NCBI GenBank assembly: GCA_963575745.1
Contig: CAUYUJ010015847.1
Location: 137,066 to 201,065 of the forward strand
Reading direction: 5' to 3'
DNA from: Prorocentrum cordatum
Taxonomy: Eukaryota; Sar; Dinophyceae; Prorocentrales; Prorocentraceae
DNA length: 64,000 bases
Below the pieces are notes generated by a model that was not told the DNA's origin, searched no databases, and worked only from the letters and a program-made list of their open reading frames with translations. A program made the translations under genes and the position numbers. Below, piece by piece: positions 14,360-53,105 of the stretch (positions within the stretch are counted from its first letter, which is position 1; each line of letters opens with the position of its first letter).

Positions 14360-17102
14360 TCAAACTGCAGCGAACCATGAATTATGCACGATGTTGCCGT
14401 GAAGACGCAACCGCTGAAAAATCCGCTTCTCCCATGCCCGCCTGTGCGAGTTCTCAGCTACGCTGCGGATGACTTTGTTAAGTGTTTCGTCGTGCCACGT
14501 CGAATGATGCAGAGGATTACCGAACAAAATCATGTGTGCCGTGAGGTGTACAAAGAGATGATGTTTTGGCGTGAGCATGCCACCTGCTCTGTCGTATGCT
14601 TTCAAATGTCTGACGCACAACGTTAACAACTTCTGATGTGTATGAGGCGGGATCTTTCGACCTGGCGATGTCTTGAGCACGTTCATGTATTCCACCAAAT
14701 GCTTGCACGCATTGAATATCTCCACACAACTATCGGCCTGGAAAAACTGCTTGCTGCTGATATGGGCGATGAATTTGAGCAAATACCCTGTCTCCGCTCC
14801 CTTGGTGTGCATTTCAGGAGCAAACGCACTGCCGAGCATCCCTGGCGTCAGCCTGCCAATCCTACTAGACAGAGGGATGTTCTCCGATTCATAAAACTCC
14901 TGCAACTCATGTCTAAGAGCGCGGCAAGCGCGTTCCACCATGACCTCGCCAGGGCCATGGTGGTGCCAGGGATTCGCTGTGATCACCGCCCACAACGCGA
15001 CCGCCACCGCTCTCGCAGCCGCGCCCAGGTGCAGCGTGTGAAGGGTGTCTATGCAGATAGACGTCTGGGGGCTTATCCCCAGCGACGCGTCGAATATTGG
15101 ATTCCTCCGCGTCACTGGGTCCAGCAGCGCACCACCCGCATCCGTTCGGCGACGCCAGAACGTGACCCGGAACGGAAGCGCCCGGCGCGTCAGCAAGCCC
15201 ACGTCAACCAGATCAGAGTTGGGGACGAGACGATCGCCAGCTCTGAGGAGCACCCCTCCCGCGCGCACTTCCCTCTGGAGGACTCGGCCAAAGCGCCTGT
15301 CATAGCGCAGCCCTCCATCAGCGAACAATGCCTGCCACTTGTCCTGGGTATCCAAGACAAGGTCGATCTCGCAGGCACTGCGCACATCCTGGTAATCCCA
15401 CCCGCCCTCTGGGCGTAGGTGGCTTAAAGAGTTTCCTCTTCCTTCTGTCCCTGCGGGGGGGGGGTCACCCCTCCCCCTGCCCCCTCCCCTGGACCTGGAC
15501 AGGGGTTTCCGCGAGCCGCCCGAGCGTCCAAAACGGCTCCGGCGAGGAAGCCAACATCATTGGTTGTATTAAGGTTTTGGCCCCATGTTGGCCTCCTGGG
15601 GGGGACTGCAATTAGCGCCCCCCCTCCCGTGATCGATCTCACCCAAGATGGCCCAAAGATTGCCCCCAAAACTCCCAAGGATGCCCCGAGAGGGCCCCAA
15701 GAGGTGGCCAGGAAGCCACAAGAGGCCCCCAGGATGCCACCAAGAGGCCCCCAAAAGACCCTCACGAGTCCCCCAGAGACCCACCAGAGGCACCCAGAAT
15801 GCTCCAAGAGGCCTCGGCGAGAATGCCAAATCATTGATTGTACGAAGGTTTTCGCAACATGTTGGCCTCTTGGGGGGGACACTGATTAAGAGATGACTCC
15901 ACAAGCACCTGGGAGAGCCCAAGATGACTTCCAAGAGGGCTCCAGATATCCCAAAATGTCTCATACTGGCTTCCTCTGCGTGCTGCCCACTTCCCTGATC
16001 GAGGCGATGCCTCTGGGCATCGTTTCTGGATGGGCTGGTCGGGATTCGCGAAGCGTCAACAATTCACTGGATCACCCCATGGAAGACCAACCAACGATAT
16101 GTTGTTGTACTCATGCAAGGTGCATTGCACAGATGAGCACATGGGGCATGGATGGTACACAGAATTCCACGATGCGAATCCGAGCGCGGTTACCCACTCA
16201 GCCCAGTCCCCTTTCAGTTGAATCACGCATGCCTTGTAGCCGAGATCAGCTGAAAGACTGCCCCAGACCTCGGAAGCCTCCCACTCTTTACCATTGTGTT
16301 TTACGGTCGGCCGAACCCCCTCCACCATGGCTTTGATTGACCATCGGAGCATGGTGAATATATGAAATAAAATATCCCACCCCTTGCATCCACAACCACA
16401 CAGCGACGATTTTCTCACCACACAAATGAGATGTCGCCTGCGTGTGATAAGATTGTACATCACGAAGCATATCAGGGACTCTTGATGGGCAGATGTTTTC
16501 TGTCTAGTGTATGACACGCCGTCAACGTAAACCGCGAGAGGGACAGGCAGCTTTTCATTGTTGCGCACAGCTTGTTGAACTAAAGGATGGTCCCGATACA
16601 CAGGTTCCCATTCGTCATTATCGTACATGGCTTTGGCCTTTTCGCTGATGCTGGGGTCAGCGGCTAGCTCATCGTGAAACGCCTCGTGAGGTAAAACGCA
16701 AGGCGTTGCGCGTTGAACACGAGACAAACCTATCAGCAGGAGGGGGGGGGGAGGAGGGGGGCGGCGTGCCAAGGGCGGAGGTGAAGGCAGATAAGGCGGG
16801 CACGGTGAGAGCAATGGCGTGGCGCAAGGGGGCATGAGAGACGGCCAAGGAGGGGCAGGGGAAGCATGAGGCGAAGAAGGAATACCTTTCCGAACGTTCT
16901 GTGGCGCCCAAAGGTTATGCAACTCCAGGTTCTCGGGCCTTGTCGGGAGCAACGTGTCGAGGTGTTTTGCAAACTTGTCGCTGGAGGACGTCGGGCTGCA
17001 TGCGAAATCACGTACACCACCAACGGCACCAGCCTTTGATGCGTAATGGGATATCACACAAACAGCTTTTGCGCTCAGGACACATCTGGCATAGAGCTCC
17101 AA
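14360..17102 (-). CDS. DDE transposase (CMC/Plavaka-like), block 1
   Basis: Two minus-strand coding segments align end to end with the plus-strand copy at 50121-53105. Segment 1 (17102 to about 16090) contains PLAVYVDGVSYTRQ (candidate first catalytic Asp), NLITRRRHLICVVR and a Cys cluster CGCGCKGW. Segment 2 (about 15390 to 14360) contains ICIDTLHTLHLG, the D-x-L-H-x-x-x-L-G pattern of CACTA/Plavaka-type enzymes and likely the second Asp, then LTPKHHLFVHLT and STWHDETLNKV (candidate catalytic Glu). The gap of about 700 bp holds dispersed repeat R1 and is probably an intron. A second probable intron is the Pro-rich stretch 16730-16888 (donor AAAG|GTATT, acceptor ATAG|GTTTG). No stop breaks either segment. 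It lies downstream of gene B on the same strand. Superfamily assignment is tentative. Confidence 0.7.
15420..16068 (+). repeat. Dispersed repeat R1 with CCAAGA core, inside the block 1 transposase
   Basis: Starts with CCCTCTGGGCGTAGGTGG and ends with GGGATTCGCGAAGCGTCAAC. Both ends recur at 22665-23335. Internally it carries two related modules (ATTGGTTGTATTAAGG near 15560 and ATTGATTGTACGAAGG near 15832, each followed by CATGTTGGCCTC(T/C)TGGGGGG) separated by CCAAGA repeats. It occupies most of the gap between the two transposase segments. Confidence 0.8.
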
Positions 17103-17109
17103 CAGGCAT

Positions 17110-18980
17110 TGAATTAGATTCTCACCAGCTTCTGTTCTCTCATCATCTGAACGAGCGAAATCACCAGGGGGCGATGCGTGTGTGTCTGACGCCTCCTCTT
17201 CTTAGCCATGGCGGCTACGGGCGGGAGCTGGGGTCGAACAGAAGTGCGCCGATGGGGGCAAACGGAACATTGCCCCTCGCCAAGCGACGTCGGCCATGCC
17301 CCCCGATCCAAGGACCCCCCCCCCTACGTTTGCCTCCAGAGAGCTCGCTTTGCCGAGGCCCGCAGGGTGGTTGGACCGTTCGCATCCCACCTATTCCCAT
17401 CCACCGCACTCCCCTTTCCCGTACCGAGGCAGTGTCTTGCATTCCCTCCCCAGTCTTTAATAAGCACCTTGGCCTCGGGCCCTGCCCCGTGGACACGTCA
17501 GGCCCCCGACAAGAGAACCCCGAGAAGACCCACAGAGCATCTTTAGAGAGCCACTAAAGATGACCCCACATCCTTGGGGGCGCCCAACAACAAAACGGAT
17601 TAGACGGAGCCCATTGGCGTGCGAGTGTTGTCGCGCGTGCGTGCGTTTGTTTGTTTCGCGTTGGTGGGAGGGGTTCCTCGGGCGCTATCTTGGGCCCCCA
17701 AAGTACCCCATACGTATAACACATTTGAAGCAACGGTTAATAGTATATCTGTATCTATATCTATATATATATACATACATACATACATACATACATACAC
17801 ACCGACATACCGCAGGGGCTCAAACTTACATATCGTGGGCTAAGCGTGGAAAAAACGCCGCCTTGCGACGGGCTCCACAGTGGAGGAGGGATGCGGAGGA
17901 GGAGGGCGCTCTCGCGGGCAGAGCAGCGCCAATGGCCTTCGCAATGAAGATGTCCAGGCCGTAAGAGAGGCGGCGCAAGCGGGGGGGGGCGACCGCTCGC
18001 TCTTAGCTTACCCTCTCCGTCCTCCTCATCCTTCTCCCCCTCCTGATTTTCTTCCCTCCTCCACCTAGTGCCAAGTCGTGTCGGTTCCCTCTACCTCCTC
18101 TTCCTCCTCCCTACCAGTCTCCTCCTCCTCCTCTTCGCTTTCCTTGTTCAAGTATATCACGTCCCTCCTCCTCCTCCTCCTCCTCCTCTCGCCGATGTCC
18201 CTCGAATGTTCCCCATGCGTTCAAACCCTCATCCCCGTTTTCGGACCGATGATCGCCTCGCGCGTGTCCTGCCCGTCCCAAGTCAGTCGAAGTTGTCTTT
18301 TTGATTGAGCTCCTGATCCTCAGTCTCCACGTGATTCCCCCTCCCGCCTCCTCCTCCTGCTCCTCCTCCTCTACCTCCTACTCCTCCTCCTGACGCGCAT
18401 CGTTGGTTCCAGAATCCATCGGAGCCATTGAAATTGGAACCGCGCTGCGGGATCTACCTCCTCCTCCTCCTCATCATCATCCTCCCCCTCCTCCTCCTCT
18501 TCCTCCTCCTCCTCATCCTCATCTCCCTCCTCCTCCTCCTTCTCCTCCACCTTCCTCCTCCTCCTCATCGTCATCTTTGTCCTCGACCTTTCTACTTCTC
18601 ACTCTGTATTCAATATCCGTCTTGAGTAGGCAGCCTCAGCCCCCTGGACACCTTCATCCTCGTCCCCTTCCTGCCAACCCCGTCCTTCATTACCCCATCC
18701 TGCCCCTTATCCCACCCCCACCCTCGGTCTAGTACCCTCCTACTGCCACATTTTTGCTCAATGCGTAGTTTCCCCTAGATTATGAGGGCGATGCGCAGGT
18801 CACCCGCCTGCGAACTGGAGCATCTGAGGGCCAGGGGGGGCTCGAGACGGGTGGATCGCTTCAAAGAAGAACGGTTGAACCCTCTTACGCCTATTGTTGG
18901 GTGGTTTCGGTGATTTTTGGGCCCCCGAGCCGATGAAATTGCTCTGGGAGTCCCCGGGGCCCAGTGATTTCAAGAGAAAA
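17110..18980. other. Spacer downstream of gene B, no supported gene
   Basis: Holds a GC-rich unique stretch (17200-17600), a TATC/TATA then CATA microsatellite (17740-17800), and CCT-rich tracts (18080-18190 and 18340-18600). ORFs here are low complexity or lack motifs. Confidence 0.6.
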
Positions 18981-18984
18981 AAAA

Positions 18985-19112
18985 AACGGAAATCAGCGGA
19001 AAATCAGCGGAAATCAGCGGCACGAAACACTGTAAAAACACAGCTGAAAATGAACAATCAGCGAGAATCAGCGCAAACTCAGCGCAAAATCAGCGCAAAA
19101 TCAGCGGCCCTT
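18985..19112 (+). repeat. Short tandem repeat based on AAATCAGCGG
   Basis: About nine imperfect copies of a 10-13 bp unit (GAAATCAGCGG, GAAAATCAGCGG, CAAAATCAGCG). It lies between gene B and the transposase of block 1, as a different 12-bp repeat (48700-48865) does in block 2. Confidence 0.8.
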
Positions 19113-19255
19113 TTTCCGTCCTAGAAACAGCCGGGGTTCCTAAAAACAACCGGGGTTGGCCAAAATCCGGCCTGCAGAACGGGCATTCGTCAGAAAACAA
19201 AGTCCGACCCTGAAAAACAACCGGGGCCCGCCGCTGATTAGCCGTTGTCCGTTGA

Positions 19256-19280
19256 AGAAAAAAAAAAAAAAAAAAAAAAA
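19256..19280 (+). repeat. A tract
   Basis: A run of about 24 A residues after TTGAAG. Weak candidate for the poly(A) end of a plus-strand retroposed fragment; nothing else supports this. Confidence 0.6.
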
Positions 19281-19603
19281 CGAACCCCACCCAACATTTG
19301 ACGTTCCACCCTGCTACGTTTGCCCCCAGGAGAACCCTCGAGGCAAAGGCAGGGCTCGTCACAGGCGAATGCACAGGCGCACTGGTCGCCAACCCCTGCG
19401 GCGACTGCGTTCGACACTTAGTCGAACGCCCGAGAAAAGTAAGACGCGCAGATCACGCGTGCACGATATATTATGATGCGCGCTGCACAAGCTGGCTCTG
19501 ACAGACCGCATGCACGAGAACTTACAGTGTAAGAGCCTCACCCAATTGCATATCAGCTGTCACCCATTCCAGCCTGTATCTGAATTGAACCTCAGTTAGC
19601 GTG

Positions 19604-21562
19604 TCAATACTCCTTCATCTTCTCATAATGCATCCTCGAGAGTTTGTCCGCCTGTTTCTGCGCCCTGTCGACGAGCTCGCCGAGGTCGCTGGTCAGGGTC
19701 GCCAACTGGACATCCATCTGGGCAGGGTCATCGTAGCTCGCCTGAATCTGATCTACATTCTGGCCGATAAGCATGGTCGCGATGGGATTGGAGAACACAT
19801 ACTTGATCATGTCGTCGTTGGCTTTCGTCATCGGCTCCACCAGCACGCTGTCTTTCAGCCACGACCAGTCGGGAGAATTTGCAATCTGGGCTGAGATGCA
19901 AGCGATCGAGGAGCTCGCCTGGCCATGCGCCACCTTCAGCTGCTGCGCATCCTTGATCTTGGCCCTCAAGTGCTTAGAGGCTGAAGCGTTGGCCTTAGCC
20001 TTAGCGTTGCCCTTGCCCTTGCCCTTCGGCGTCGCAGGTGCTGGCTTCGGCGACAGAGCCTGGCCCCTCACAGACTTCCTCGACCTCTTGTTGGGCGGTT
20101 CCCTCGCCTCGTCGCCGACGGCGGCCTCTTCCTGGGCCGCGCGCGCCGCGGCGGCTGCGGGCTCAGCCGCGGGCGCAGCTGGACCTGCGGGCGCAGCTGC
20201 GGGCGCAGCTGCGGGTGCATCTGCGGATGGAGCTGCGGGCGCAGGTCCGTTGCCGCTGCGCGAGGCAGCGCTGACCGCCGCGCCGCCGCTTGCAGATGGC
20301 GGCGCTGCACCTGCAGCTGCACGAACTGGTTCGAACGTGGTACGCCCTTCGGGCTCAGCGAATTCTGCAAGAAGGCGGCCTCTGTTCTCCTCGCGCTGCG
20401 TAGTCTGCCAGCACTGCGTGAATATATCATTGTACTGCTGCTTCACGTACAGGAACTCCATGGCTCTAGTCATGACGTTGAAGCGGTACCACTGGGTGCC
20501 CATCATGGCGCACGCGTATGCGTAACGCCAGGCACGCTCAGCCGCCTCTTCGGTGCTTCCCTCCTCGACTTTGGTCCTGTCCAGGGGGTGGTAGACGCCC
20601 ATGTCTGCAGTCGCGACCTGATGGCGATTGATCATCTCGCGGCTCTCCCTGTACATCTCGAACTTTGCCTTGCACCACTTCTGCCTGACAGCCTGCTTCG
20701 CGCGGTTGCCCCTGCACTCGAGCCACGACTTCTTCAGCTCCTTATCCGAGGCCAACTCCCTCTGGAAGCGCCAGCCCAGAGGGCTGCGAGCATTGATCTC
20801 GAAATTGGTCATCTCGGCCTCCTCCAGGTGGGGATCCCTGCCTGCGTCGTCTTCGCCATCGAGCTCATGCTTGTCGTAGCGGCCCCTCCCCATCTGCTGG
20901 CTCGACAAGCTGCGCAGGAATTCTTCCTGGCCCATGCCCTCTGGGACGCGGGGGGGGCCGTCGGGCGGGCCGTCGACGGGCGGGCCGACGGGCGGGCCGT
21001 CGGGCGGGCCGTCGGGCGGGCCGTCGGGCGAGCCGTCTGGCGGGCCGTCGGGCGGGCCGTCGGGCGGGCCGTCGGGCGGGCCGTCGGGCTCCTCGGCTGC
21101 CTTGCCTGGCAGCGCCTCGACCCTCTGCCAGAACCCCCTGTCTGCTGCCACGACTTCGCTGTACTGCTGCTCCGACATGCCCTCGCGCGGAAACGTGGGC
21201 CTCGACAAGTGCGCGGGCGGCTGCGATGCGGGGGCTTCCGGAACGGGGGCTCTGGCAGCAGCGATGTCACGTGGATTGCCTGGCACCGTGAAGGTCTCCT
21301 CACGCTGGCTATCCTCAAGGAACGTACCTTCGGGCCCCTGCTTGTTGAGCTGCCCGCCGCCCTGCCCATCAGCTGGAGCTTCGGGGGGGTCATGGACCTC
21401 AATGGGCGCGGGCGGGGCGGCCTCTGAGGGCGTCTGGGGCGCACTCGCTGCCGAAGGCGTCGCAGCTGGAGTTCCTCCTGCATTGGACCCCGATGCCGTC
21501 GTGGAGACAGGGGAGGGGGCGCCCGCCGTGACCCTGTCGAGGCTCTCAACCAGGACTGTCAT
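19604..21562 (-). CDS. Gene B, block 1: uncharacterised protein, 652 aa
   Basis: An uninterrupted minus-strand ORF with ATG at 21562. I know no family for it. In order: a Pro/Ala/Ser-rich N-terminus; a run of PPDG repeats (about residues 155-205, from a 12-bp GC repeat at 20950-21100); a charged helical domain (about 250-400) containing WRFQRELASDKELKKSW, RQKWCKAKFEMYRE and AMEFLYVKQQYNDIF; an Ala/Pro-rich linker; a basic patch NKRSRKSVRG suggesting nuclear entry; and a C-terminal helical domain (about 540-650) with SPDWSWLKD and SNPIATMLIGQ. Both helical domains align with gene B of block 2 (45445-48397), so they are the conserved parts. It lies between gene A and the transposase, same strand. 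A structural or DNA-binding accessory role is inference. Confidence 0.75.
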   Translation of the reverse strand: MTVLVESLDRVTAGAPSPVSTTASGSNAGGTPAATPSAASAPQTPSEAAPPAPIEVHDPPEAPADGQGGGQLNKQGPEGTFLEDSQREETFTVPGNPRDIAAARAPVPEAPASQPPAHLSRPTFPREGMSEQQYSEVVAADRGFWQRVEALPGKAAEEPDGPPDGPPDGPPDGPPDGSPDGPPDGPPDGPPVGPPVDGPPDGPPRVPEGMGQEEFLRSLSSQQMGRGRYDKHELDGEDDAGRDPHLEEAEMTNFEINARSPLGWRFQRELASDKELKKSWLECRGNRAKQAVRQKWCKAKFEMYRESREMINRHQVATADMGVYHPLDRTKVEEGSTEEAAERAWRYAYACAMMGTQWYRFNVMTRAMEFLYVKQQYNDIFTQCWQTTQREENRGRLLAEFAEPEGRTTFEPVRAAAGAAPPSASGGAAVSAASRSGNGPAPAAPSADAPAAAPAAAPAGPAAPAAEPAAAAARAAQEEAAVGDEAREPPNKRSRKSVRGQALSPKPAPATPKGKGKGNAKAKANASASKHLRAKIKDAQQLKVAHGQASSSIACISAQIANSPDWSWLKDSVLVEPMTKANDDMIKYVFSNPIATMLIGQNVDQIQASYDDPAQMDVQLATLTSDLGELVDRAQKQADKLSRMHYEKMKEY

Positions 21563-21599
21563 CAGGAAAGGTCGATCCTCGAAAGTGTGATGCGAGGTT

Positions 21600-22480
21600 C
21601 ACACAACAGGACGCCGCAGTGCGTCCAGCTAGAACTGAGAAACAACGGCGATGGTACTGTGAACTATGGTTGGCTGCGTGATGCGTGCTGTCACATGTTG
21701 CATTATGTGCAATTGCATGTTTTGCCAGTTGTCTTTCAGCTCTGTGCTTTCTGCTTATGCTGCGTGTTTTATATGCTGCCTGCTTCCTGCTTGTTTATGA
21801 GGTTGGCCGTGCGATTTCGTATGATGCAACGTGCGTAATTGCATGCGTTCCCAGTTGCTTCTGTTTTGCGCGGCATACGTGTCGACTCTTTCGAACAACT
21901 CTCTTTGCCCCTCCTTCTCACCCCAATTATCCTACTCTGGGGGCGGGGCAGAGGAGGGGGGAGGGACGAGGGGGAGGAGGGGGAGGAGGGGGAGGAGGTG
22001 GATGAGGAGGAGGAGGAGGAGGAGGAGCAGCAGCAGCAGGATCATGAGCAGGAGCAGGACCAGCAGCAGAGGCAAGAGCAGAGGCAGAAACAAGAGCAGA
22101 AGCAGGCGCAGGAGCAAGAGCATGATGAGGCGAGCCTATCTCCCCTCAGGCGATCATGGCCCCGAGTTCTTCCCAACCGATTATTGCCTCGAGCTCCGCC
22201 AGCCCTTCGGCTGACATGGGGAGGTCGCGGGGGCGGCGGAGGCGGCCGGGGTGGCGGGTTCCTAAGGTACCGAACCCACTCAATCCACTGCCCGATATTT
22301 TCATAGTATTCTGGCACAACGACTTGTTCTTGGGTAAACCACCCACGCGGGCCAAGCGACGGTTGGGGCGGAGGGTGCTCGGAACGGGCAGGTGGATAAG
22401 AAGAGATCAAGAGGGAGTGGATAAGGGCAGACGAGAAGGAGGAGGAGGAGGATAAGGAGGAGGGGGGAAGACCTTCTTCT
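21600..22480. other. Region upstream of gene B with GGAGG and CAG-rich tracts
   Basis: Contains two related stretches (TGCAATTGCATGTTTTGCCAGTTG near 21710 and GTAATTGCATGCGTTCCCAGTTG near 21835), a polypurine tract (21950-22025) and a degenerate CAG/GAGCAG tract (22025-22120). No convincing gene. Confidence 0.55.
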
Positions 22481-22664
22481 GATATATCAGCAGGGTGGCG
22501 TAAGCTATTTGAATGCGCTCAAAAACCAGCCGAAAAGCTCCTGCCCACTACCAGGTTGCTGGCCCTGAAAAAGCCTTAGTGGGCAAGAGCGTGTTTCGCG
22601 TTGTTGGGCCGAATCGCTGGATTTCCTTTGGGGTCGGTGTCAACATGCCTGCTTGAATCCCATC

Positions 22665-23335
22665 AGCCCTCTGGGCGTCGGTGGTTTAAAGCGCTTCCTA
22701 GTCCACCCCTCCTTCTTCCCCTTCGGGGAGGGGCTTACCCCTCCCCCCATGCCCCCTCCCCTGGACCTGGACGGGGGGTCCGCGAGTGCCCCCAAAACGA
22801 CTTCGGCGAGGAAGCCACAATCATTGGTTGCATTATGGTTTGGGCCCCATATTGGCCTCCTGGGGGGGGGGGGGCTGTAATTAATGGCCCCCCCTCCTGA
22901 TCGATCTCACCCAAGATGGCCCAACGACTGCCCCCAAGGCTCCCAAAGGTGCCCCGAGAGGGCCCCAAGGTGGCCATGAAGCTCCAAGAGGCCTTCAGGA
23001 CGCCCCCACGAGGCTCCCAAGAGACCCCGAAGAGGCCCCAAGAGACCCCAGAAGCACCCAAGATGCTCCAAGAGGCCTCGGCGAGAATGCCAAATCATTG
23101 ATTTTATGAAGGTGTTAGCAACATGTTGGCCTCTTGGGGGGGGCTGATTAAGATGACTCCAAGAGCGCCTGGGGGAGCTCAAGATGACCTCCAAGATGGC
23201 CCAATATACCCCAAGATGTCTCATAATGGCTTCCTCTGCGTGCTGCCCACTTCCCTGATCGAGGCAATTCCTCTGGGCATTGGTTCTGGATGGGCTGGCG
23301 GGGATTCGCGAAGCGTCAACCATATTTTTTCACGA
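22665..23335 (+). repeat. Dispersed repeat R1 with CCAAGA core, full-length copy
   Basis: Starts CCCTCTGGGCGTCGGTGG and ends GGGATTCGCGAAGCGTCAAC. The same internal order as 15420-16068: C-rich head, CTCCCCTGGACCTGGAC, two ATTG(G/A)TTG...TTGGCCTC modules, and CCAAGA repeats between them. It lies between genes A and B of block 1. Confidence 0.85.
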
Positions 23336-23339
23336 GCTT

Positions 23340-24280
23340 GATGTCCCATTGGGCGCCGCGGCACTTGCGGCAGCAGGTGGCAATCTCACGGAGGCAGAGT
23401 GAAACGTGTGATCTCTCTTTCTCGAAGAGTCGAGCCCCTCTCCCCGACCCCCCATTCGCTTTGGGGGGGGGGCCGCGAGTTGTGTCGATCTGCGTATCGC
23501 CAGGTTCTTGGGGTCCTTTGGGGCGTTCCTCGGACCAACCTCCTCACCTACACCCTTTCGGTCTCAACCACACCCATCTTCTGGACCCTTCCCTCCTCCG
23601 CTCCTGCACCGCCACCTCCCCCAACTCCCCTCCCCCGTTCCTCTCCCTTGTCTGGCGGGGTTGGGGGTAGAGGCTCAGGCCCTTCGCGCCCATCTTTGCG
23701 CCCCAGAGAACATAGAAGCAACGCTCCATGGTCCAATGCCCATGGTATCTCGCATGCCGCACGTGCTGTGGCATTTCGTCCAAGAGGGGGCAGGGTCTCG
23801 AGCAATCTTGACGACGCTGACGGTATAGCGATTTTCTCAGATTCATCATTATCGTTATCCGTGTTTTCCTCCGCCGTCTGTTTGTCATCCTGTTTCCAAC
23901 GATTATCCATTTCCCTACCCTCCTCAGCTGTGTTTCGTCATGCTCGTGTGTCGTCATGCTCGTGTTTCGCTCGGCTGTGGTACGTTTGGCTTCAAGTGTT
24001 TGAGGTTCAATCGGCCCCCTGGAAACACACCTGGAGTGTGTTGGACAGCTTCGCTGTCTGCCCGAGCTCGGCAAACTGAAAGAACTGAGCGCGAGAGGAA
24101 AACAACATAACACACTTGAGACGGGAGCACTAGCGACGCAGTGCGCACCAGAATGAACGCAAATGTACACACCACAGAAATAGAAAGGCTCAAGAGATCG
24201 GTGGGCTCAGCTCCCCCGCCAAGTCATCTGAAAATCCCTCTCGCACATAGACCAACCTCATCGTGGCGACATGCCGTGCA
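23340..24280. other. Spacer between genes A and B of block 1
   Basis: No motif supports a gene. Two adjacent copies of TTCGTCATGCTCGTGT occur near 23935-23975. Confidence 0.5.
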
Positions 24281-24284
24281 CGGT

Positions 24285-26470: not shown

Positions 26471-26499
26471 GGGGCGGGCGGTGGTGCGGCGGCGCCAGG

Positions 26500-41109: not shown

Positions 41110-41210
<101 letters not shown>

Positions 41211-41345: not shown

Positions 41346-41349
<4 letters not shown>

Positions 41350-41389
<40 letters not shown>

Positions 41390-42365: not shown

Positions 42366-44726
42366 ATGTCTCGAAACTGCTGCAAAGCAGTAGACGAGTG
42401 CCGCGATGCGCTCATGCTGCACATCACGTCGAAAGACCCGTTCGAGTACGGCAGCAACCCAGGCAACGATTGCCTCGACGCGATCGCCCTCGGCCGCACC
42501 AAGGCCAACGCGAAGGTCACACACGGGGCAAACGACGTCGTCGATGGGGGCGGGAGGGGGAGAAGGGCGAGAAGGAGAAGAGGGAGGAGGAGGAAGATGG
42601 AGGGGAAGGAGGGGGCGGAGGGAGGAGGAGAAGGAGGAGAAGGAGAAGAGGAGAAGGAGGAGGGTAGATGATGACGGATAGGATGAGGACGGCGTCGAAC
42701 GGCACGGCGGCGTCAAAGCCTTCTCCTCCCCGCCACCTCCTCCTTATCCTCCTGACCCTCCTCGATCCTCCTCCTACTTCTCCTTCTGACCCTCCTCGCT
42801 CCTCGCATCCCTCCTCCTCCTTCTCCTCCTCATTCCTCATTCCTTCTCCTTCTTCTCCTCCTCCTCCTCCTCCTCCCTCCTCCTCCTCCTCCCCCCCTCC
42901 TCCTCCCCCATCCCTCGTCCGTCCTCCCCCCCCCTCCCTCGGGTGCGACGACCGACGAGCGACGCCCCCCCCCGCCCAAGTTGCTGGGCGCACTTGAAGC
43001 GGTCTCGAACAACCTCGCCTTCTCGCCCGAGACGATGAGGTCCGCCTGCATGCAGATGGCTGCGCAGAAGGCGGTGTCGGGTTCCAAGCCGCAGCGCAAG
43101 GCTTGGAAGTTCGAGACCGACGAGGAGATGGAGCAGTGGGCCGACCTCATGTCTCAAAAGTGCATTGGGTGAAAGTCGCGATCAGCTCACCTCCTCCTTC
43201 TCCTTCTCCTCCTCCTCCTCCTCATCCTCATCCTCGTCCTCATCCTCATCTTCCTCCTTCTCCTCCTATCTCCCTTTCTTCCACCCCTTCCTCCTCCCCC
43301 ATCCGAGCCTCCGCCCTCCTCCATCCCTGGGCCCCAACCCCCCGCGGCTCTCCTCCTCGGAGGAGGGGCGAGGGCAGGATAAGCAGGAGGGAGGAGGAGG
43401 ATGAGGAGGAGAAGGAGGAGGAGGAGGAGGAGGACAAGGAGGAGGAGGAGGAGGAGGAGGAGGAGCAGGAGAAGGAGAAGGAGGAGGAGGAGGAGGAGGA
43501 GGAGGAGGAGGAGGGGGAGGAAGTCATTTTCTTGCACCATCCACAGGTTGCGCTCCATGCGCAGGCACCTGTACGACCCGCTGAGGCGGGAGCGGGACCC
43601 TGGCGCTGGCAAGCATCCGAAGTGGCTGGACGAGGTCAGAGCGTTGCAGAAGGCTGCGCCGTCTTCATCTGCTGGAGCGGCTTCATCGGCTTCGTCGGCT
43701 CCGCGCGTGCGGAAGGTCGACGCCGACTGGGGCCCGTCGACGGGCATCGCGCATCGGTGCGCGTCGTCCGAGAGCCAGGGCTTCGCGTCGTTCGAGCCGA
43801 CTGGCGACGGCGACACCGACGCGATGCAGGTTCGCTGGAAGGACGGCGCGATCTCGATCTTGAGCACGCTGACGGTCGGGGCGTGGCAGGCCCTGGGGCG
43901 CGGCGAGAGCGCTGTCGCTCGGTCCGCGACGAACACCCTCGCCGTCTTCGAGGGCGCGGTCGGCACCGTCAAGGTGGAGAACAAGCGCCTGAACCCAGGC
44001 GAGGAGGGCGTCGTGCTGAAGATCAACGGCGGCCAGAAGCTCCAGCTGTCCCTCAACAAGCACAGCCACGAGAACGCGAAGACGTGGCTGATCGAGCGCG
44101 CGCCGAAGATGGCCGACGGCAGCCTCACGGTCGAGGAGGCCAAGGCGGAGAAGAAGATCTTCGACGCCAAGGCGGAGAAGAAGGTCACGGCACTGAAGAG
44201 GCCAGCAGCGGCTGCAGGAGCGCCCAAGGCCGACGCCGAGGGCGAGGACGAGGACGAGGGCGCGGCGACGGCGGCGCTTCGCAGGTCGGCAGCTTCGACG
44301 GTCGACGGCGACGATTCCGCCGACGCGGAGGAGAGCGACAACGCGTCCAACAGCGAGGACGAGGAGCCTGAGGAGCCTGAGGAGCCCGTGGCGAAGCGCG
44401 GCAAGCCAGCGGCGGTGCAGCCTGAGGAGCCCGCGCCGACGGCAGCAGCGAAGCCCACGGCAAGCGCGAAGGGGAAGGCTGCAGCCGCGAAGAGGAAGGA
44501 CGAGCCCTCCGCGAGCCAGCGAGAGGCCAAGAAGGCCAAGGCAGCACATGAGCCAGGGGGCGCCGCCGATGACGCTGTCAAGATCGAGAGCTCGAGCAGC
44601 GAGAATGGCGGCGACGAGGCCAGCGACCCTGGCGGCGACCCCAAGGGGACCGACAGCTCCGAGGAGTCAGAGGCGGGCGGCATGCCGCCGCCGCCAGGCA
44701 CGGGCGGCTTGGCTGGCTTCTCGTGA
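42366..44726 (+). CDS. Gene A, block 2: uncharacterised nuclear-type protein, three exons
   Basis: Exons 42366-42536, 42981-43168 and 43547-44726, inferred because coding sequence alternates with AGG/CCT arrays and the frames join cleanly (donor GAC|GTCGTC and acceptor CAAG|TTGCTG for intron 1, less certain; donor ATTGG|GTGAAA and acceptor CACAG|GTTGCG for intron 2). No family recognised. Exon 2 has ETDEEMEQWADLMSQK, exon 3 LRSMRRHLYDPLRR, KHPKWLDEV, AMQVRWKDGAISILS, VVLKINGGQKLQLSLNKHS and ADGSLTVEEAKAEKKIF, which align with block 1 gene A. Two segments near residues 270-430 are acidic/Lys-rich (KRPAAAAG, AAKRKDEP), suggesting nuclear location. No internal stop. Order A, B, transposase on the same strand. 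Confidence 0.7.
42537..42980 (+). other. Intron 1 of gene A, block 2, with AGG and CCT arms
   Basis: An AGG/GGAGAAGG arm (42546-42665) is followed by a unique 50-bp centre and a CCT/TCCTCC arm (42720-42935). The arms are complementary and could form a hairpin of about 100 bp. Confidence 0.65.
43169..43546 (+). other. Intron 2 of gene A, block 2, with CCT and AGG arms
   Basis: Canonical GT...AG. CCT arm 43187-43270, unique centre, AGG arm 43385-43525. The block 1 paralogue has no intron here. Confidence 0.8.
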
Positions 44727-44744
44727 GGTCGGAGCCCAGCGAGT

Positions 44745-45265
44745 AGGGGAAGGAGGAGGAGGAGAAGGAGGAGGAGGATCGGGGAGGAGAAGGACACCGA
44801 GGGGGAGGAGGAGCAGGAGGAGAAGGAGAAGGAGGAGAAGGAGAAAGCGAGCCAGTGCAAGAGCTTTCGGGCAGGCGCTCGGCCTGCGAAGCGGCGCAAG
44901 CATCGCTCGTGCCGCGCCCTTCCGCTGAAACATATTCGGGGCTCCTTGTCCTCCTCCTCCTTCTCCTTCTCCAGTTTCACTTCTGTTCAAGCCAGTTCTT
45001 CAGCTTAGCAGCGGTTTCGGACCCAATTCAATTCAAGCGAGGACCCAAACCGATCGCATCAGCCAAGGACCCAACCCATCCCAATCCATTCAGGCCTGTT
45101 CCAGGATGACGAGGGTCAGGAGGAGGGGGGGGAAGAGGCTGAGGGTAGAGGAGGGGAGAGAGCGTGAGGGTGCGAGAGTGTAGGAGGGGCGAGGAGGAGA
45201 CGGGAGAGGGTATATATAGAGAGAGAGAGAGAAAGAAAGAAAGAGAGAGAGAGAGCTGTTACAGT
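44745..45265. other. Spacer between genes A and B, block 2
   Basis: AGG tracts (44745-44850, 45120-45180), a unique stretch with repeated GAGGACCCAA (45039 and 45065) and a GA microsatellite (45218-45255) preceded by TATATATA. It may include the gene B leader; no exon is firmly visible. Confidence 0.5.
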
Positions 45266-47284
45266 AGAGCAGCAGTAGACAGTCAAGGGATGAGCAGGGC
45301 TGACTGCGCGCCGCGCCAGGCGGAGCTGCTGCCGATGGCCCCCCGCCAGCGCCTGCAGCAGCGCCGCCGTCGCAGCCCCAACAGTCGGCGGATCAGTCGC
45401 CGATCGCCGTCGCCGATTGCCAGATTTCGCCCCAGGTCCACCAGATGCAGGCGCAGATCGACGCGCTTCTTGCGCAGAGGGCGATGCTTGGGATGCCGAT
45501 GCCGACGAGCCCGATGCTTGGGGTTAAGCAGGATGACTTCGAAATGAAGAGCGAGGCGGGCGACGACGACGCAGCGGCCGAGGCGCTGGCAGGCGATCTT
45601 GCACAGGCTGTTGGTCCGCCAGCCGAGGAGGCAGCAGCCCCTGACGATGCAGCAGCCAGCGAGGAAGAAAGCGAGGTCCCAGCGGCGCAGGCTGATCCAA
45701 CGCAGGCCCCCGAAGCATCGGGCAGCGAGGACGGGGGCGACGACCTGCCGCTGGCGCGCGCTGAGCTGGCTAGGGAGGGGGACATGTTCCAGAGGAACCA
45801 GCGTGAGCTCAAGCAGCTGCGGGAGAGGCAGGCGGAGCTGCAGCGCGTGCTCGAGATGGCCGAGGGCACGGAGCGCCGCATCAAGAAGAAGAGAGCCGAC
45901 CGCGAGCAGGCCGCCAGGGATCGAGGAGCTTCTCGGATGGCTGCGTCCCTCGAGCCAGTGCCCGTCCCCAAGCGCTCTCGCGTCGACGAGGTCCTGGGGC
46001 GCGGCCGCGACACGGTGAGTACCGAGCTGGACGCCGAGTTGGCAAACGGCCCATCGTCAGCCGCTGTGACGCCAGTCCCTCGCCCTTCAGAGACGCCGCC
46101 GTCCACGCCGATGAAGCAGCCCGTGGACCAGAAGAGCGCCCTGGCTGACATCTCGAATGCGGTTGCTGAGAAGCTTAGGAATGACCCCAGTTCCTTGACA
46201 GAAAACACGGCTGGCCATAACTTCGTACCTCGTGGGCTCGACAATGTGGCCGAACAGCAAGCTGGTGAGCAGGGGCCTCATGATGAGGCGTCCACCGACG
46301 AGCTCGAGACGATGTTGGAGGAGATGAAGGGAAAGCGGGGCGCTGGTGACGTTGAAATCCGCCTCGCGGTTGCCGAGCAGAGCTACAACTTCGGCGTGCG
46401 CTCAGCCATTGGCAACAAGCTGGATCGGGACCTCAAGGCGAACCCCGCGAAGGATTTGGAGTGGAAGCAGGACAAGAGCAAGGATAAGGAAGACTTCAAG
46501 AAAAAGTGACTCTTGGAGAAGTGGAGCGAGCTGCCGACGACCAAGCGAACCTTCACCACCTCCCACACCGAGGACTGGCGCGAGAGGGGCGAGCTCATGA
46601 CCTTCCTCAAGATGGCCTACGAGGAAGGGGGTCCCGCTGGGCAGACGGACCCAGGTACGCTGGAGGCTTGCATGCGCACCGTCAGGCGTTGCATTGACCT
46701 CGGGTACCCATATGCCCAGCGGGGCCCCCAGAATGGGGTCCCGAAGTTCCTCTACTTCAGGCTCATACCAGGAGAGCTTCAAGCGGGAGTGGTCGAAGAC
46801 GATCGCGCACACGAAGGGGCCGAAGGCCATCGAGAACGGGAGCTCTGGCACAGCAGGTGGAAACTCAAGCGGAACGGGGAGGCCGACAGGCACAGGCTCT
46901 GGCACAGGAGGCGGCGGAGGCACTGGCACAGGATCAGGCGCAGAAGGCGCTGGCAGTGGACCAGGCGCAGGCACTGGATCAGGCTTGGGCACTGGCATAG
47001 GATCAGGCCGTGGAAAGGGCAGCGGCCGTGGATCAGGCGGCGGCGGCGCCGCGGACGTGGTGCAGAAGCAGCTCGCTACCGCCAAGAAGCTCACAGAGGC
47101 CATCAAGGGCGCGCTCTCTGCTGGCAAAGCGATGCTGGATGACATCAATGAGAAGGCTGAGTTCAAGTGGGCCAGGACCGACGAGGTGGAGGGCTTGATG
47201 GACGCCAAGGAGCAGGCGCTGCGCACGGCCGCGAGGAGCATCGCGCTGGCTAGCATGCTGATGTCGAACACGGAGCTGGCGCAG

Positions 47285-47543
47285 GCGACCGATTGAACAG
47301 GATAGGATGAGAAGGGGGGATGCGGAGAAGAAAGAGGAGGAGGAGGTGAGGGGGTGAGGAGGGCAGCGGCGAAGTGGATGATGAGGGTGAGGCTGAGGAT
47401 GATGAGGAGGAGGAGGAGTGGGAGGAGGGGGAGGAGGGGGGGCAGGGGAGGGGGAGAAGGAGTAGGAGGAGGAGGAGGAGGGGGAGGAGGAGGGGGGAGG
47501 AGAAGGAGGAGAAGGAGGAGGAGGCGGACCCCTCCGCACCCAG
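47285..47543 (+). other. Intron of gene B, block 2, with GC donor
   Basis: GCGCAG|GCGACC at the donor and CCCAG|GTGAGG at the acceptor; joining gives Ala-Gln-Val in frame, matching block 1 gene B. Filled by AGG repeats. Confidence 0.7.
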
Positions 47544-47606
47544 GTGAGGCAGCGGCTGTCCGCCAAAGAGATCAGCTCGCAGTCGGCGGAGATCAGCAAG
47601 CTCGAG

Positions 47607-48271
47607 GACGGCCGCCTGCAGGGGAACGGTGCGGGTGGGAGGGTGAGAAGGCAGATGATGAGGAGGAGGGGGTGGAGGGAGTGGGAAAGGGTGAGAGTAG
47701 GAGGGGGAGAAGGAGGGGGAGGAGGAGGAGGAGGAGGAGGACGAGGAGGAGGAGGAGGAGGAGGAGGATAAGGAGGAGGGGGATAAGGAGGGGGGGGGAG
47801 GGGGGGGGAAGGGGGGGGGGGGGGGGAGGGGGGGGAACGGGGGAAGGGGGAAAGGGGGGAGGAGAAAGGGAAGGAGGAGGGGGAGGGGGAGAGAGAAGGG
47901 GGAGGAGGAGGAGAAGGAGAGGAATGAAGAGAGGAGGGGAGGAGGAGCAGGAGGGGGAGGAGGAGGAGGAGGGGGAGGAGGAGGTGGAGAAGGAGGAGTG
48001 GGAGGGGCAAGGAGGAGAAGAAGGCGAAGGAGGAGGAGGAGAAGGAGGAAAGGGATGAGGGAGGGGGCAAGGGGAGGAGGAGAAGGAGGAGAAGGAGAAG
48101 GAGAAGGAGGAGAAGGAGGAGGAGGAGGGGGATCCCATCCCTCCTCCTGGTCATCCATCCCTTCTCCTCCTCTTCCTCTTTCTCCTCCGCCTCCGCCTTC
48201 TCCTCCTCCTCCTCCTCCTCCTCCCTATTCCTCCTCCTCCTTGTCCTCCTCGTCCTCCTCGGCCGCTGCAG
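47607..48271 (+). other. Intron of gene B, block 2, with GA donor and AGG/CCT arms
   Basis: CTCGAG|GACGGC at the donor and CTGCAG|GATCCC at the acceptor, so AG|GA is present at both ends. A long AGG/GGGGA arm (47640-48130) is followed by a CCT arm (48140-48262). Confidence 0.7.
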
Positions 48272-48699
48272 GATCCCGTCGGCTCCCTGAATGCTCTCGT
48301 TGCGAAGACCCACCGCGTGCACAATCTCATGGATCTCAAGGGCGGCGACGCTGGCAGCAGCGCGGGCAGCTCGCGCAAGAGGAAGAAGCAGGCTTAGGTA
48401 GGTTCTCAGATCGTCAAACCTGCAAGGGGGTGAGATGCAGAAGAGGAGGCTGCTGAGAGGGAGGGTGAGGAGGAGGTGGAGAAGGTGTTCTAGGGGCAAA
48501 CGAAGGGCCCATGCGGGCCCAGGAAGGAGGGGGGCAGGGTCCGACGAGCCAGGGGCTGCCTCGACTGTTTGCGTCAAGCCAGGGGTGACCAGAACACTAG
48601 GAGTCACGATTGCATGGGCAGCTGCGGCGACCGCATGGGCAATCCGCGGCGCCGATATGGGTCACATGGTGTTGCATTCAGAAAATAACCGGCAGATTA

Positions 48700-48866
48700 C
48701 ATGAAAATCACACCCAGATCGATCACTGATCTGATCACTGATCTGATCACTGATCTGATCACTGATTTGATCACTGATCTGATGCGTTTACCCGGTTATT
48801 TATCAGGGATCGTACACTGATCCGATCACTGATCCGATCACTGATGGTTCACTGATCCTTTGCTGA
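48700..48866 (+). repeat. Tandem 12-bp GATCACTGATCT repeat
   Basis: About nine copies of TGATC(T/C)GATCAC, interrupted by GCGTTTACCCGG (48785). The unit is rich in the palindrome GATC and is nearly self-complementary. Lies between gene B and the transposase of block 2. Confidence 0.9.
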
Positions 48867-48879
48867 TCCTATAAAAACA

Positions 48880-49116
48880 TCCCGACCCCCCCTCCTCCCC
48901 CCCCGAACCCCACCCCGACGCCCTCCCGACGCCCTCCGAACCACCCCCCCCCCCCCCCCCCCACACACCACCCCCACCACCACACCACACACACACCACC
49001 ACCACCACCATCAACCACCATCACCACAACCACACACCACACACCCACACTCACTGCCAACACACACACACACACACGACCCCTCCGAAGCTCCCGACAC
49101 CCACCGCCGAACCCCC

Positions 49117-49157
<41 letters not shown>

Positions 49158-49215
49158 ACGCCCTCCCGACACCCTCCTGACACCCCCTCATCCTCCCTCT
49201 CCTCCTCATCCTTGT
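48880..49215. repeat. Poly-C and CACC/CACA tracts
   Basis: Includes a C run of about 38 nt at 49117-49155 and CCACCACCAC/ACACACAC. No coding evidence. Confidence 0.9.
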
Positions 49216-49414
49216 CCTCCTTGTTCACCCCTCCCCCCTTTTCTGACTGAGTGCAACGCCATTCCCGCCCGTTTGAAGGGCAGCAGGGGCTGCCTTCCAG
49301 CCCTTGGGGAACGCATCCGAGGCGACCGCCTGGATGCAGCTCCTGGCGCAGCGCGAGAGCAGTGCGCTAGCGAGCTTCGGGTGACACGGCGTCCCCTTTT
49401 CCTCCACCTCCTGC

Positions 49415-49690
49415 TTGGAGGGGAGGGGGGGAAGGGGGGGGGAGGAGAAGGAAAAGGAGGAGGAGGATCGAGGAGGAGAAGGAGGAGGAGGAGGAAGAAG
49501 AAGAAGAAGATGTCCCTGGCAGGATGAGGAGGAGGAGGAGAAGGAGAAGGAGGAGGAGGAGGGGGGGGAGGAGGGGGGGGAGGAGAAGGAGGAGGATGAG
49601 GGGAGAGGGAGGAGAGGGAGAAGGAGAAGGAGGAGAAGAAGAAGGGTGGGAAGGATGAGGAGGAGAAGGAGGAGGAGGAGGTCTGAGGGA
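49415..49690. repeat. AGG/GGAGAAGG polypurine array
   Basis: About 275 bp of purine repeat with AAGAAGAAG near 49497. All overlapping frames are repeat translations. Confidence 0.9.
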
Positions 49691-50120
49691 TAAACAGACT
49701 CCTCTCTCCTCCCTCGCCGCGCCGTCGTTGCCTGCTTCGACTGCATCGGGCAAGGGGCTGCGTTCCGTCGAAGGTGCAGGCCCCATGGGGCCGCGAACCC
49801 GCTTTCCCAGGGGACCGAATCTGGCTCAGATCGACCCCATGGGGTCCGAATTTGCGCTGGCGGCTGCCCCGCCCCTCCCCCCTGGAGTCGCAGCTGGCGC
49901 TACCCTCCTGCCCCTTTCTCAGGCCTGCCCTGCTGGGAGCACGCCGAGCTACCCTTGCATCCTGAACTCTACAGCGCCAACCCCCTTCAGGACCTGGATT
50001 TCTGGGAGGGACATCACCATGGGCCCCCGGGGCCGCCCGTCTCATGGGACGCCGCAGGCGCCCGAGGTGATTGCATCTCGATTCGCGGCGGCTCCGTAGT
50101 AACTGGCTCGAGCGGGTACC

Positions 50121-52733
50121 ATGTTTAAGCGGGGGCGAACTATCAGTTCCGCGCCAGATGATAGCGATGCAATTCGATATGCCGAGAAGCGCCTAGTGGA
50201 TTTACAAACAATGTATTGCCAAGGCGAGATGACTGCTAAAGCATTATGTACTTTGGCACATACGGCATGGATGGCGGGGGCCCGATCTGACAATCTTAAG
50301 AGCTGGGCCCTCCCAAAGGGCCAGTCCAGTGGGCATTACCAGAGACTCATCGACACTAGAATTGAGGAGCTCAACATTACACGCGTAAAGCCATTAACGT
50401 TGTGTGTGCCAGGGCAGTCAAGGGTTCGGCGTCGACGGACGGACCTTAGGGCCCAAGTAAGACCGATGCACGAATTGCTTCACGAAGAGATGTACGATAT
50501 ATATGGGTCTCGAAACGAAATGCGACAAGCCTTGCAGAACACAGAGCAGCCAGCGATTTACCATCAACACAAAGTTGTGAGGGATTCGTCTGGTGATGAC
50601 ATCGTTTTGCCATGCGCTGTATATTTAGACTCTGCTCAGTTTGGGGGCGCCGCGGGCGCTGGGCGAACCAAATCACAGCTCGTGGTTTCGTTGATCAATA
50701 TGTTGACGAGGCGCCGACATGTTTCGATAAGTTTCAGAAAACACCTCCAGTGTAAGTGCGGATGCCACGGACATTGCTCAACGTACCCACTGTTTGGTTT
50801 CATTCGTTGGTGTATCGATGCGCTCGCTGAGGGCGCGCATCCAGATCGGCACGTCAGCGGGCGCGGCTGGCTTCCAGAGGATGGGTCTCGCGGTGATTTG
50901 GCGGGCCAGCCTTTTGGGATAAAAGCAGCAATATTATATATCATGGCCGATTGGGAGGCCATCGCCAGTTCGTTCTGCGTTCCGTCCTGGTCCCACCATT
51001 CGTACCCGCGCCCTCTGTGCGACGCGTCCATCGACACCCTCCACGAATACAGGACCCGATTGTTTCCGATGGGGAGAGGATGGGGGGGGGGAAAAGATGA
51101 GGAGGAGGATGGCATGGAGGGAGGGGTGGGGGTGGGGGGGAAAGGCCCGTTCAGGGCCAGCCTGTTCTCCGGCAGGAAATGCCACGAAATCCCGCGGGAC
51201 CGCCCCTCCCCCTCCCGCCTTTTACCCCTCTCCCAGATCTTAAACAATCTCAGCCTGGTTCGGTCATCGACGGCGCCGTGGACCGCGCGCGAAGTCGGCG
51301 CGCACGACCGCGCGACAGATCGGGCAAAGGTCTGGGTCTATCTCGTTTCGGAGGCCGATCGGGGCAAGCTGGTTTCAGGGACTGATTTGTATTTCAACAG
51401 GCGTGATGGTGGGAAGGGGCTCACAGTTTCACGGGAGTTGCCGTCTATCAACCATGCCCGCTCTGTGCTGGAGGTTGGAGACGTGCTCATGCCACAGACG
51501 GGGCTTCCAGGTATAGCTAGCTACGCAGTAATGCCAGCGCCTGGGTGGTATTATTTCTGGAGGCCTTCAAAGGCCACGCTGGCGACAAGGCCAAATGATA
51601 TGCTTAGTGCTCTTATCGGTGTGACAATATCAGGTTCCATGGCAGTTGAGTGTCTGCACACTGTCGCTTTGTTCGATCATTCTGGAGACGGTTTGGAGAG
51701 CCGTTGATTCGGATTTCTTTTGTACGCATGATATGGCGAAGAGCATGCGAGAACAGATCGTATTCGACAAGATTATGGTGCATCTCGACAGCTGGTATGT
51801 TGAACAGAAGCGTCTTAAGCGGAACCCTGATCAGATAAAACCTCAATCCTTGGGGATTGTCAGATCTGCCTCGAGCCCTGCCCTCAAGTCTAAAGGAGGG
51901 GAGTCCGCGTGGTTATTCGAGTGGTGTGCGACGTCTTTCTTGCCAGAGCATGCTCGGTATTTATCGAATGGGGCTGGGTTGCTGGCGTCTGCGCGAGCTC
52001 TGTTCGATTGGAGCCAGTACCTTCGGACCTTGCCTGATGTGCCCAACTTGGATCAGTGCAGGAGACTCGAGGAGATGGCACTCCGACATTTGATATTACT
52101 CGAGGGGGCGAAAGTGCCTCTCAAGCCGAAGCACCACCTGTTCTGGCACCTCACAGAGAGGACCTCGGGGACCAAACGCGCCAACCCCACCCGTCGCCGC
52201 GGCTGGATCGCGACAGAATTCTGGCTCTCACATCGGAGCTCGATCGAGCCGACCCTGGGAACACTCGTCGCCACGGCTGGGACCGCCTCTGAATTTTACA
52301 GTGCTCTTGCACTTCGGATGTCGTCCCTCGAGGCGGCTGGATCGCGTCGAAATTCTGGTCTCTCGGGGCGGGGGGCGGCGCCCAAGTCGGCCTGGGGAAT
52401 GGCATTGTCGCCGCGGCTGTCTTCGTTTCGAAAGCTCGCGCTCTGCCCGCCTGCCGCCCCCGACCCATCCACCCCCGGCAGAGAGAGGGCAAAGCAAGGG
52501 GGTTGTCCAACGCTGCGGGTCCTCGCACCCGAAGACACCTGGCAGAGCGGGGTCCTCCCCCTCCTCCTCATCCTCCTCTCCCCTCCTCCTCCTTTCCCTT
52601 CCTCCTCCTCTCCCCTTCTCCTTCTCTCCCCTCCTCCTCCTCTCCTCCCCTCCCCTCATCATCCTCCTCCTCCCCCCCCTCCCCTCCCCCCGCCTCCGGC
52701 CCTCCCCCCCCCCCCCCCCCCCCACCCCCCCCC

Positions 52734-52782
<49 letters not shown>

Positions 52783-52850
52783 ACCCCACCCCCCCCCCCC
52801 ACCCCCCCCCCCCCCCCCCACCCCCCCCCCCTCCCCCCCACCCCCCCACG

Positions 52851-52893
<43 letters not shown>

Positions 52894-53105
52894 ACCCCCT
52901 TCACTTCCCCCAACAACGCTTCTCCTGCAGGACAAAAGAGTTCGGACACCCAAGGCTGTATGCTACCTGGCAAGACGAGAGCTTGAATGGCATGCTCGGC
53001 CGTCTGGCAGAGTCGGCGCATGCCTCGCAGTACGAGAAAGGCGTTTTCGCACGCCTCGACTTGCAATTCCATTTGGGGGTCGGAGCCGCTCGATGTGAGA
53101 TCTAA
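50121..53105 (+). pseudogene. DDE transposase (CMC/Plavaka-like), block 2, frameshifted
   Basis: Aligned with the minus-strand copy at 14360-17102. It has LPCAVYLDSAQFG (first Asp), NMLTRRRHVSISFRK, the Cys cluster CKCGCHGHC, VECLHTVAL (where block 1 has IDTLHTLHL, so the second catalytic Asp is Glu here), and, in another frame after about 51668, AVDSDFFCTHDMAK, LKPKHHLFWHLTERT and, past an intron, KEFGHPRLYATWQDESLNGM. The frame change near 51668 is a 1-nt indel. Intron 52161-52930 is required to join HLTERT to KEFG, giving a gap-free match to block 1. The stretch 51060-51250 has no block 1 counterpart and may be a second intron. The frameshift and Asp-to-Glu change suggest inactivity. Confidence 0.7.
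52161..52930 (+). other. Intron of transposase, block 2, bounded by AGGAC
   Basis: Donor AGAG|GACCTC, acceptor TGCAG|GACAAA; AGGAC occurs at both junctions. Filled with CCT repeats and long C runs (52700-52900). Splicing joins the flanking frames exactly as in the intronless block 1 sequence. Confidence 0.75.

Follow-up and report, generated by a model that had tools for sequence, protein, structure and literature searches.

The DNA analysed here, referred to as the window, is a 64,000-nt stretch of the Prorocentrum cordatum genome (C14998:137066-201065 in a 4.13-Gb assembly) and contains two blocks of three genes. In both blocks, gene A is followed by gene B and then by a candidate transposase gene, T, all in one orientation, with block 1 on the minus strand and block 2 on the plus strand. 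This shared order and orientation was described in the initial annotation and was borne out by our refined gene models, as were the differences in introns and lesions between the blocks. A1 has two exons vs three in A2, B1 is one open frame whereas B2 carries a TGA and a frameshift, and T2 is frameshifted. The gene features are listed below; box A refers to the motif [LVI]-D-x-[LM]-H-x3-L-G.

25692..25931, minus strand: A1 exon 1; the splice to exon 2 is spanned by P0001, an annotated P. cordatum protein
24285..25589, minus strand: A1 exon 2; contains RKRPAAAPKRACKKAK; splice supported by P0001
19604..21562, minus strand: B1, 652 aa, single open frame; B is present in 6/6 element-1 copies
16886..17201, minus strand: T1 exon 1 (predicted start); in six other copies the similarity starts at its residue 7
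16076..16729, minus strand: T1 exon 2; VYVDG, KGDW and CPMC motifs
15409..16075, minus strand: T1 intron; nearly all of it is taken up by a dispersed repeat with another copy at ~22.66-23.32 kb
14360..15408, minus strand: T1 exon 3; IDTLHTLHLG and DETLN motifs; the sole box-A match in the 127,996 six-frame residues of the window
42366..42515, plus strand: A2 exon 1, hand-modelled
42981..43168, plus strand: A2 exon 2, hand-modelled
43547..44726, plus strand: A2 exon 3; matched in the genome search (A2 splicing was done by hand)
about 45304..47293, plus strand: B2, broken; TGA at 46507-46509 and frameshift near 46767
about 50121..53105, plus strand: T2, decayed, with a frameshift near 51680 and changes in the DG, CxxC and box-A motifs

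T1 comprises 672 codons with no internal stop. A well-placed ATG (GCCGCCATGGCT) upstream of T1 (17150-17260, minus strand) does not share the reading frame of the conserved exon. The proteins of both A and B have matches among annotated P. cordatum proteins. The RKRPAAAPKRACKKAK stretch of A1 is presumably a nucleoplasmin-like bipartite nuclear signal, and we also take the basic patch in B to be of nuclear type.

The initial annotation held that each gene aligns to its partner in the other block, and this stood to a different degree for each gene. Homology between T1 and T2 was certain (BLASTP E 8e-25; Smith-Waterman z 50). For the B pair, broken B2 was substituted by the intact P0004, a close relative that has W at the TGA site and a continuous frame across the lesions. 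B1 and P0004 aligned well over ~165 central residues (z 9.0, 0/1000 shuffles; 14.5 bits, 0/1879 scored shuffles), but the C-terminal part was unsupported (z 0.4), and hhalign gave only E 0.0055 for this pair. Seven cross-pair controls in the Smith-Waterman shuffle test remained at background. B1 and B2 appear homologous over these ~165 central residues.

Pairwise similarity between A1 and A2 was weak, with a Smith-Waterman z of 7.0 for the hand-spliced model and 4.0 for the middle part alone (4/1000 shuffles), a profile score reached by 8/1490 scored shuffles and an hhalign E of 0.058. One hhalign result for A was set aside as circular, the A2 exon being inside the profile. Plain BLASTP detected neither the A pair nor the B pair, and in a blind scan of the window by open-frame fragments neither A2 nor B2 stood out. 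A home-made intron-tolerant aligner gave no discrimination at low skip cost. At cost 30, A1/A2 and B1/B2 were mutual best matches (the B2 side being queried with P0004), with reversed proteins scoring similarly or higher for A and for B1; at cost 24 the A pair ranked only third. Only P0004 against B1 stood clear in this analysis (83 vs 49 at cost 30).

The assignment of A1 and A2 to one family came from searches of the whole assembly. The A1 search returned 66 match rows and the A2 exon search at least 131 (some loci in two rows), and neither query matched the other's locus in the window. Nevertheless, ten of the 15 distant contigs in the A1 list were matched at the same place and on the same strand by A2 (C15822, C13456, C20644, C3186, C21165, C14100, C1736, C16074, C14217 and C16792). 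As these ten distant loci are common to both searches, A1 and A2 belong to one family. The same searches revealed at least 17 near-full A1 copies with 95-100% identity to P0001 and seven A2-type copies at 97-100% (one in two pieces, one with a stop), the window copy being included and the copies lying on different contigs in both cases. These copy counts are lower bounds, as only the best candidates were scored.

The A1 search listed sixteen other near-full copies, and retrieving the sequence around six of them placed block 1 within a larger repeated unit, element 1.

13587..26867, minus strand: element 1, 3'-truncated copy, 13,281 bp; the six fetched genome copies match across it save for ~190 nt, then continue into a shared 3' part
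26858..26867, minus strand: 5' terminal inverted repeat CCCAGAGGGT; same start base in 8/8 other copies; in inverted orientation all 10 bp pair with the 3' ends of five copies
26084..26410, minus strand: four 5' subterminal repeats GCCTCARYGCCRCGMACA; four matches at <=3 mismatches; 0/100 shuffles reach four

The main pieces of the six copies were 94-99% identical to the window element, with ~190 nt at 23110-23296 unmatched in all six, and on the 5' side nothing matched past 26869. Genes A, B and T were found in this order in all six copies, with B split by a stop in two of them and a stop in T exon 2 of one. The common 3' part, absent from the window copy, was present in 6/6 copies, measured 2389-2408 nt in the five with a located 3' end and ended with CCCTCTGGG in these five; the 3' end of the remaining copy, C17778, was searched for and not found. 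Because five copies run on in this way to the 3' terminal repeat, element 1 at full length is ~15.7 kb, of which the window copy has lost the last ~2.4 kb through 3' truncation. With its 3' end missing, the window copy should not transpose as it stands. The terminal repeats of block 1 had first been sought within the window alone and were not found there, likely because of this truncation.

The 5' start of eight copies (the six fetched and two more) reads CCCAGAGGGTGCCGAGA and falls at one exact base. Their 5' flanks differ, save for one pair, C10125 and C17778, which share a flank and may therefore be a single duplicated insertion. Both ends were read in five copies, and in each of these the terminal inverted repeats match perfectly over 10 bp (full end comparison for C2101, the other four showing the same terminal bases) and the element is flanked by 2-bp target-site duplications (CA/CA, TC/TC, TC/TC, TA/TA and TC/TC). 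The four GCCTCARYGCCRCGMACA repeats, counted with a pattern derived from these very repeats, lie ~450-780 nt from the 5' end, with offsets equal within 1 nt in 6/6 copies. No 3' partner of this motif was detected, the two ends of C2101 sharing no 12-mer beyond simple repeats.

Block 2 likewise lies within a larger element, element 2.

40033..57344, plus strand: element 2, 17,312 bp; terminal repeats, subterminal repeats and a second copy with the same two ends
40033..40059, plus strand: left terminal inverted repeat; 23/27 match the right one; imperfect, outermost 27-28 bases
57318..57344, minus strand: right terminal inverted repeat; pairs with the left repeat
40079..40147, plus strand: left subterminal repeats; exact 22-mer CACTTGAACACTTCAACCGCAA, 0 expected in shuffles
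57236..57275, plus strand: right subterminal repeats, in direct orientation to the left ones; a 40-nt direct match scores 32.5 vs a shuffle maximum of 14 (n = 60)

The terminal sequence of element 2 is CCCAGAGGTCC, with the same first bases (CCCAGAGG) as element 1. The terminal inverted repeat alone was only moderately unusual (2/200 shuffles and 1/90 real pairs scored as high) and was not selected by a masked scan for repeats; it becomes convincing with the addition of the subterminal repeats, which share the exact 22-mer between the regions at 40.08-40.15 kb and 57.24-57.28 kb, and of a second copy on C17982. Stretches of this copy, in which only the ends were compared, are 88-94% identical to element 2 and run from exactly 40033 up to 57344 or 57345. 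The C17982 copy is flanked by AA on both sides, a 2-bp duplication; window element 2 has no matching duplication, with CT vs AT at its two flanks. The window copy keeps both ends and is decayed, as seen from the stop and frameshift in B2 and the frameshift and altered motifs in T2. Two further observations concern this element: a run of 94 T lies inside it at 41115-41208, and the fetched C17982 sequence (C17982:127823-132822) has CCCAGAGGTCC twice, once at the 5' end of the element and once elsewhere, where it may mark where a different element ends.

In order, the resulting unit comprises a terminal repeat starting with CCCAG, subterminal repeats, genes A and B, T and a second terminal repeat, with a 2-bp target-site duplication. 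The initial annotation had suggested that A and B are accessory genes of a large DNA transposon, perhaps a CACTA-like one, and the common termini, terminal inverted repeats and target-site duplications around A-B-T support the transposon reading. The size it gave (10-12 kb) was too small for elements of ~15.7 and 17.3 kb, and its outer borders (14.3/26.5 and 41.8/53.2 kb) were off, the elements spanning 13587-26867 and 40033-57344. It had also raised an alternative, that an ancient segmental duplication copied a host locus in which a transposon resided alongside A and B as host genes. The nuclear appearance of A and B, the frequent presence of dinoflagellate genes in arrays or extra copies (as stated in the excerpted text of PMC11453091) and the 5' flank shared by C10125 and C17778 would all be compatible with such an event. 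However, copies on different contigs begin at one nucleotide while their flanks otherwise differ, and A, B and T are enclosed by terminal repeats with target-site duplications. A segmental duplication leaves these common termini and duplications unexplained, and we give it hardly any credence.

We further investigated whether the unit is conserved beyond close copies, using the 10 kb downstream of three distant members of the A2 list (45, 34 and 32% identical to A2) that were chosen before their content was known. T occurred downstream of A in the same strand and order at 3/3 of these loci, within 6.5-9.7 kb, and B lay between A and T at two of them (L029 and L031). At the third (L030, on C1736), B was not found and only the later part of T matched. 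No T or B match occurred in ten control stretches (53.8 kb) taken from outside element-1 copies. The possibility that A and B usually lie away from the transposase, which would have argued against a transposon origin in the initial annotation, was therefore not what the sampled loci showed. In total, A precedes T in five diverged lineages, namely element 1, element 2 and the three distant loci, and the two elements in the window are old and distantly related to each other. Between A and T at L030 (1461-8912, oriented downstream of gene A), we also observed open frames of up to 2484 codons in several frames, probably a long repeat array.

This conservation bears on whether A and B take part in transposition. 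If they were passengers, host genes captured long ago with no role in the process, then the missing B at one distant locus would be readily accommodated, as would the lack of any DNA-binding domain recognised in A or B by domain and profile searches. Against this, A and B still precede T even where divergence between lineages has brought protein identity down to 21-27%, and we consider a passenger origin unlikely. Where they lie in the element, how fast they diverge and the nuclear signals they carry are best explained if A and B are end-recognition or regulatory partners of T.

To classify T, five sequences were aligned: T1, T2 and three relatives from short assembled contigs (P0006, P0007 and P0008). 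T1 and the three relatives keep a DG, a GDW followed by CxxC, box A and DE[ST]LN, save that P0008 is without the DG region and P0007 ends before DE[ST]LN. Box A was found in 4/5 aligned sequences (T1, P0006, P0007 and P0008, but not decayed T2) and is rare by chance (<=8/20000 shuffles per protein); among the T sequences of the three distant loci, it was seen only in that of L029. The CxxC after GDW, as read from the alignment, is CPMC in T1, CPFC in both P0006 and P0007 and CFLC in P0008, and is lost in T2. For box I ([ILV]-x-[ILVF]-x-[ILVF]-x2-D-G-x3-[FY]), the core up to DG occurred in T1 and P0006 only (P0008 being without the region), the form with F/Y in 0/5, and ~3% of shuffles hold the core.

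Profile and structure searches returned no family. No Pfam or NCBIfam model matched T at cut-off, and Transposase_21 (PF02992) was absent from the matches listed, for which the E limit was 1 with the window exons and 5 with the three relatives. At these limits, the KDZ Pfam model (which we take to be PF18758) was likewise not among the models listed for T. A T profile matched no PDB sequence within an E limit of 1. AlphaFold gave a poor model of T (mean pLDDT 56.5, pTM 0.34), for which Foldseek returned nothing at E 0.001. Pattern scans found no T relative in viral and prokaryote collections and no A or B relative in the viral collection. Pfam also held no model for A or B at cut-off; this is in line with the earlier statement that they fit no recognised family, and neither of these two protein families has a known relative in the libraries that were searched.

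The features of T and of the element ends can be compared with two known systems. The Transposons Related to CACTA (TRC; SmTRC1 and relatives in Tribolium, Aedes and fungi) have box A, CCC-starting terminal repeats and 2-bp duplications according to the portion of PMC1636069 available to us. The elements here share with this group box A (in T1 and the three relatives), a CCC core in the terminal repeats of both elements (CCCAGAGGGT and CCCAGAGGTCC; Aedes: CCCAGTCAAC) and 2-bp duplications (in the five element-1 copies and the C17982 copy of element 2). In contrast to the TRC elements of 4.5-9.2 kb described in that portion, they are ~15.7 and 17.3 kb long, carry two extra separate genes and encode a T with no PF02992 match. 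Plant CACTA elements, as covered by the excerpt of PMC2613891, include En/Spm (8.3 kb), Tam1 (17 kb) and Tgmt* (20.5 kb), and are similar to our elements in size range, in their subterminal repeats and in combining a transposase with a second protein that differs strongly between elements. However, the terminal inverted repeats here start with CCCAG rather than CACTA and the duplications are 2-bp rather than 3-bp. Furthermore, A and B are separate genes, whereas in the same excerpt the plant proteins TNPA/TNP1 are spliced from the transposase's own transcription unit.

T therefore resembles TRC/CACTA transposases in its motifs, and we describe it as TRC/CACTA-like. We do not assign it to the group, given the lack of a match to Transposase_21. 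T could instead come from another DDE superfamily (e.g. the KDZ group) and have merely converged on the TRC motif, as the absence of Transposase_21 or any other transposase model from the matches listed (E up to 1 for exons, up to 5 for relatives) might suggest. We judge such convergence improbable, as box A, the DG / GDW / CxxC layout, the CCC-starting terminal inverted repeats and the 2-bp duplications jointly fit TRC.

Taken as a whole, we are highly confident that each block is a copy of a large cut-and-paste DNA transposon and that both belong to one old, diversified superfamily in P. cordatum. In the mechanism we propose, T would be a DDE enzyme that cuts and joins the element ends, and A and/or B would be nuclear DNA-binding proteins that sit on the subterminal repeats and load or regulate T. 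Recognition of the element ends by A and B may be analogous to the role of TNPA/TNP1, which act at subterminal repeats in plant CACTA elements (excerpt of PMC2613891). We are evenly divided over a stronger version, in which A, B and T would form an obligate three-protein transposition machine, A and B would be new end-recognition families co-diversifying with the subterminal repeats, and the superfamily would be old, present in many lineages, autonomous and a contributor to the growth of a 4-Gb genome.

Dinoflagellate genomes are huge, and little was found in the open-licence literature on their autonomous DNA transposons. Among the papers listed there, no title or abstract start described elements such as these. 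A dinoflagellate survey reports a 119-bp RepeatMasker hit to EnSpm6_SB in Alexandrium ostenfeldii (excerpt of PMC3229502), and by term count the word CACTA is absent from a dinoflagellate genome review (PMC11453091). The introner elements described in the accessible part of PMC10666404 are, like the elements here, mobile DNA with inverted repeats in the same species, but they are intronic and taken as non-autonomous. With exact ends and duplications defined alongside a candidate transposase and its two conserved partners, A and B, copies become countable, datable and testable, and the question of which machinery moves DNA transposons in dinoflagellate genomes becomes concrete.

Several other repeats and retroelement-like frames occur in the window. 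A LINE-type retroelement at 1130-4415 (minus strand) has endonuclease (PF03372) and reverse transcriptase (PF00078, just below cut-off) frames; an apparent repeat match at 2.7 kb was rejected as it sits in a LINE endonuclease. An 861-codon open frame at 8353-10935 (minus strand) has no Pfam match and contains a YIDD motif, presumably as in reverse transcriptases. This frame is flanked by direct repeats (5695-5970 and 11881-12156) that are 6.2 kb apart and ~94% identical when compared as translations. A GC-rich open frame at 27251-29311 (minus strand), which lies just beyond the 5' end of element 1, contains TYHNELADYVTR, a stretch that we take to be like a retroelement RNase H. Finally, the introner-like dispersed repeat of ~670 nt occurs at 15394-16063 and about 22656-23323 (minus strand; 84% identical over 686 columns), one copy being in the T1 intron and the other between A1 and B1, with partial relatives at 4.9, 6.6-7.1 and 34-36 kb.
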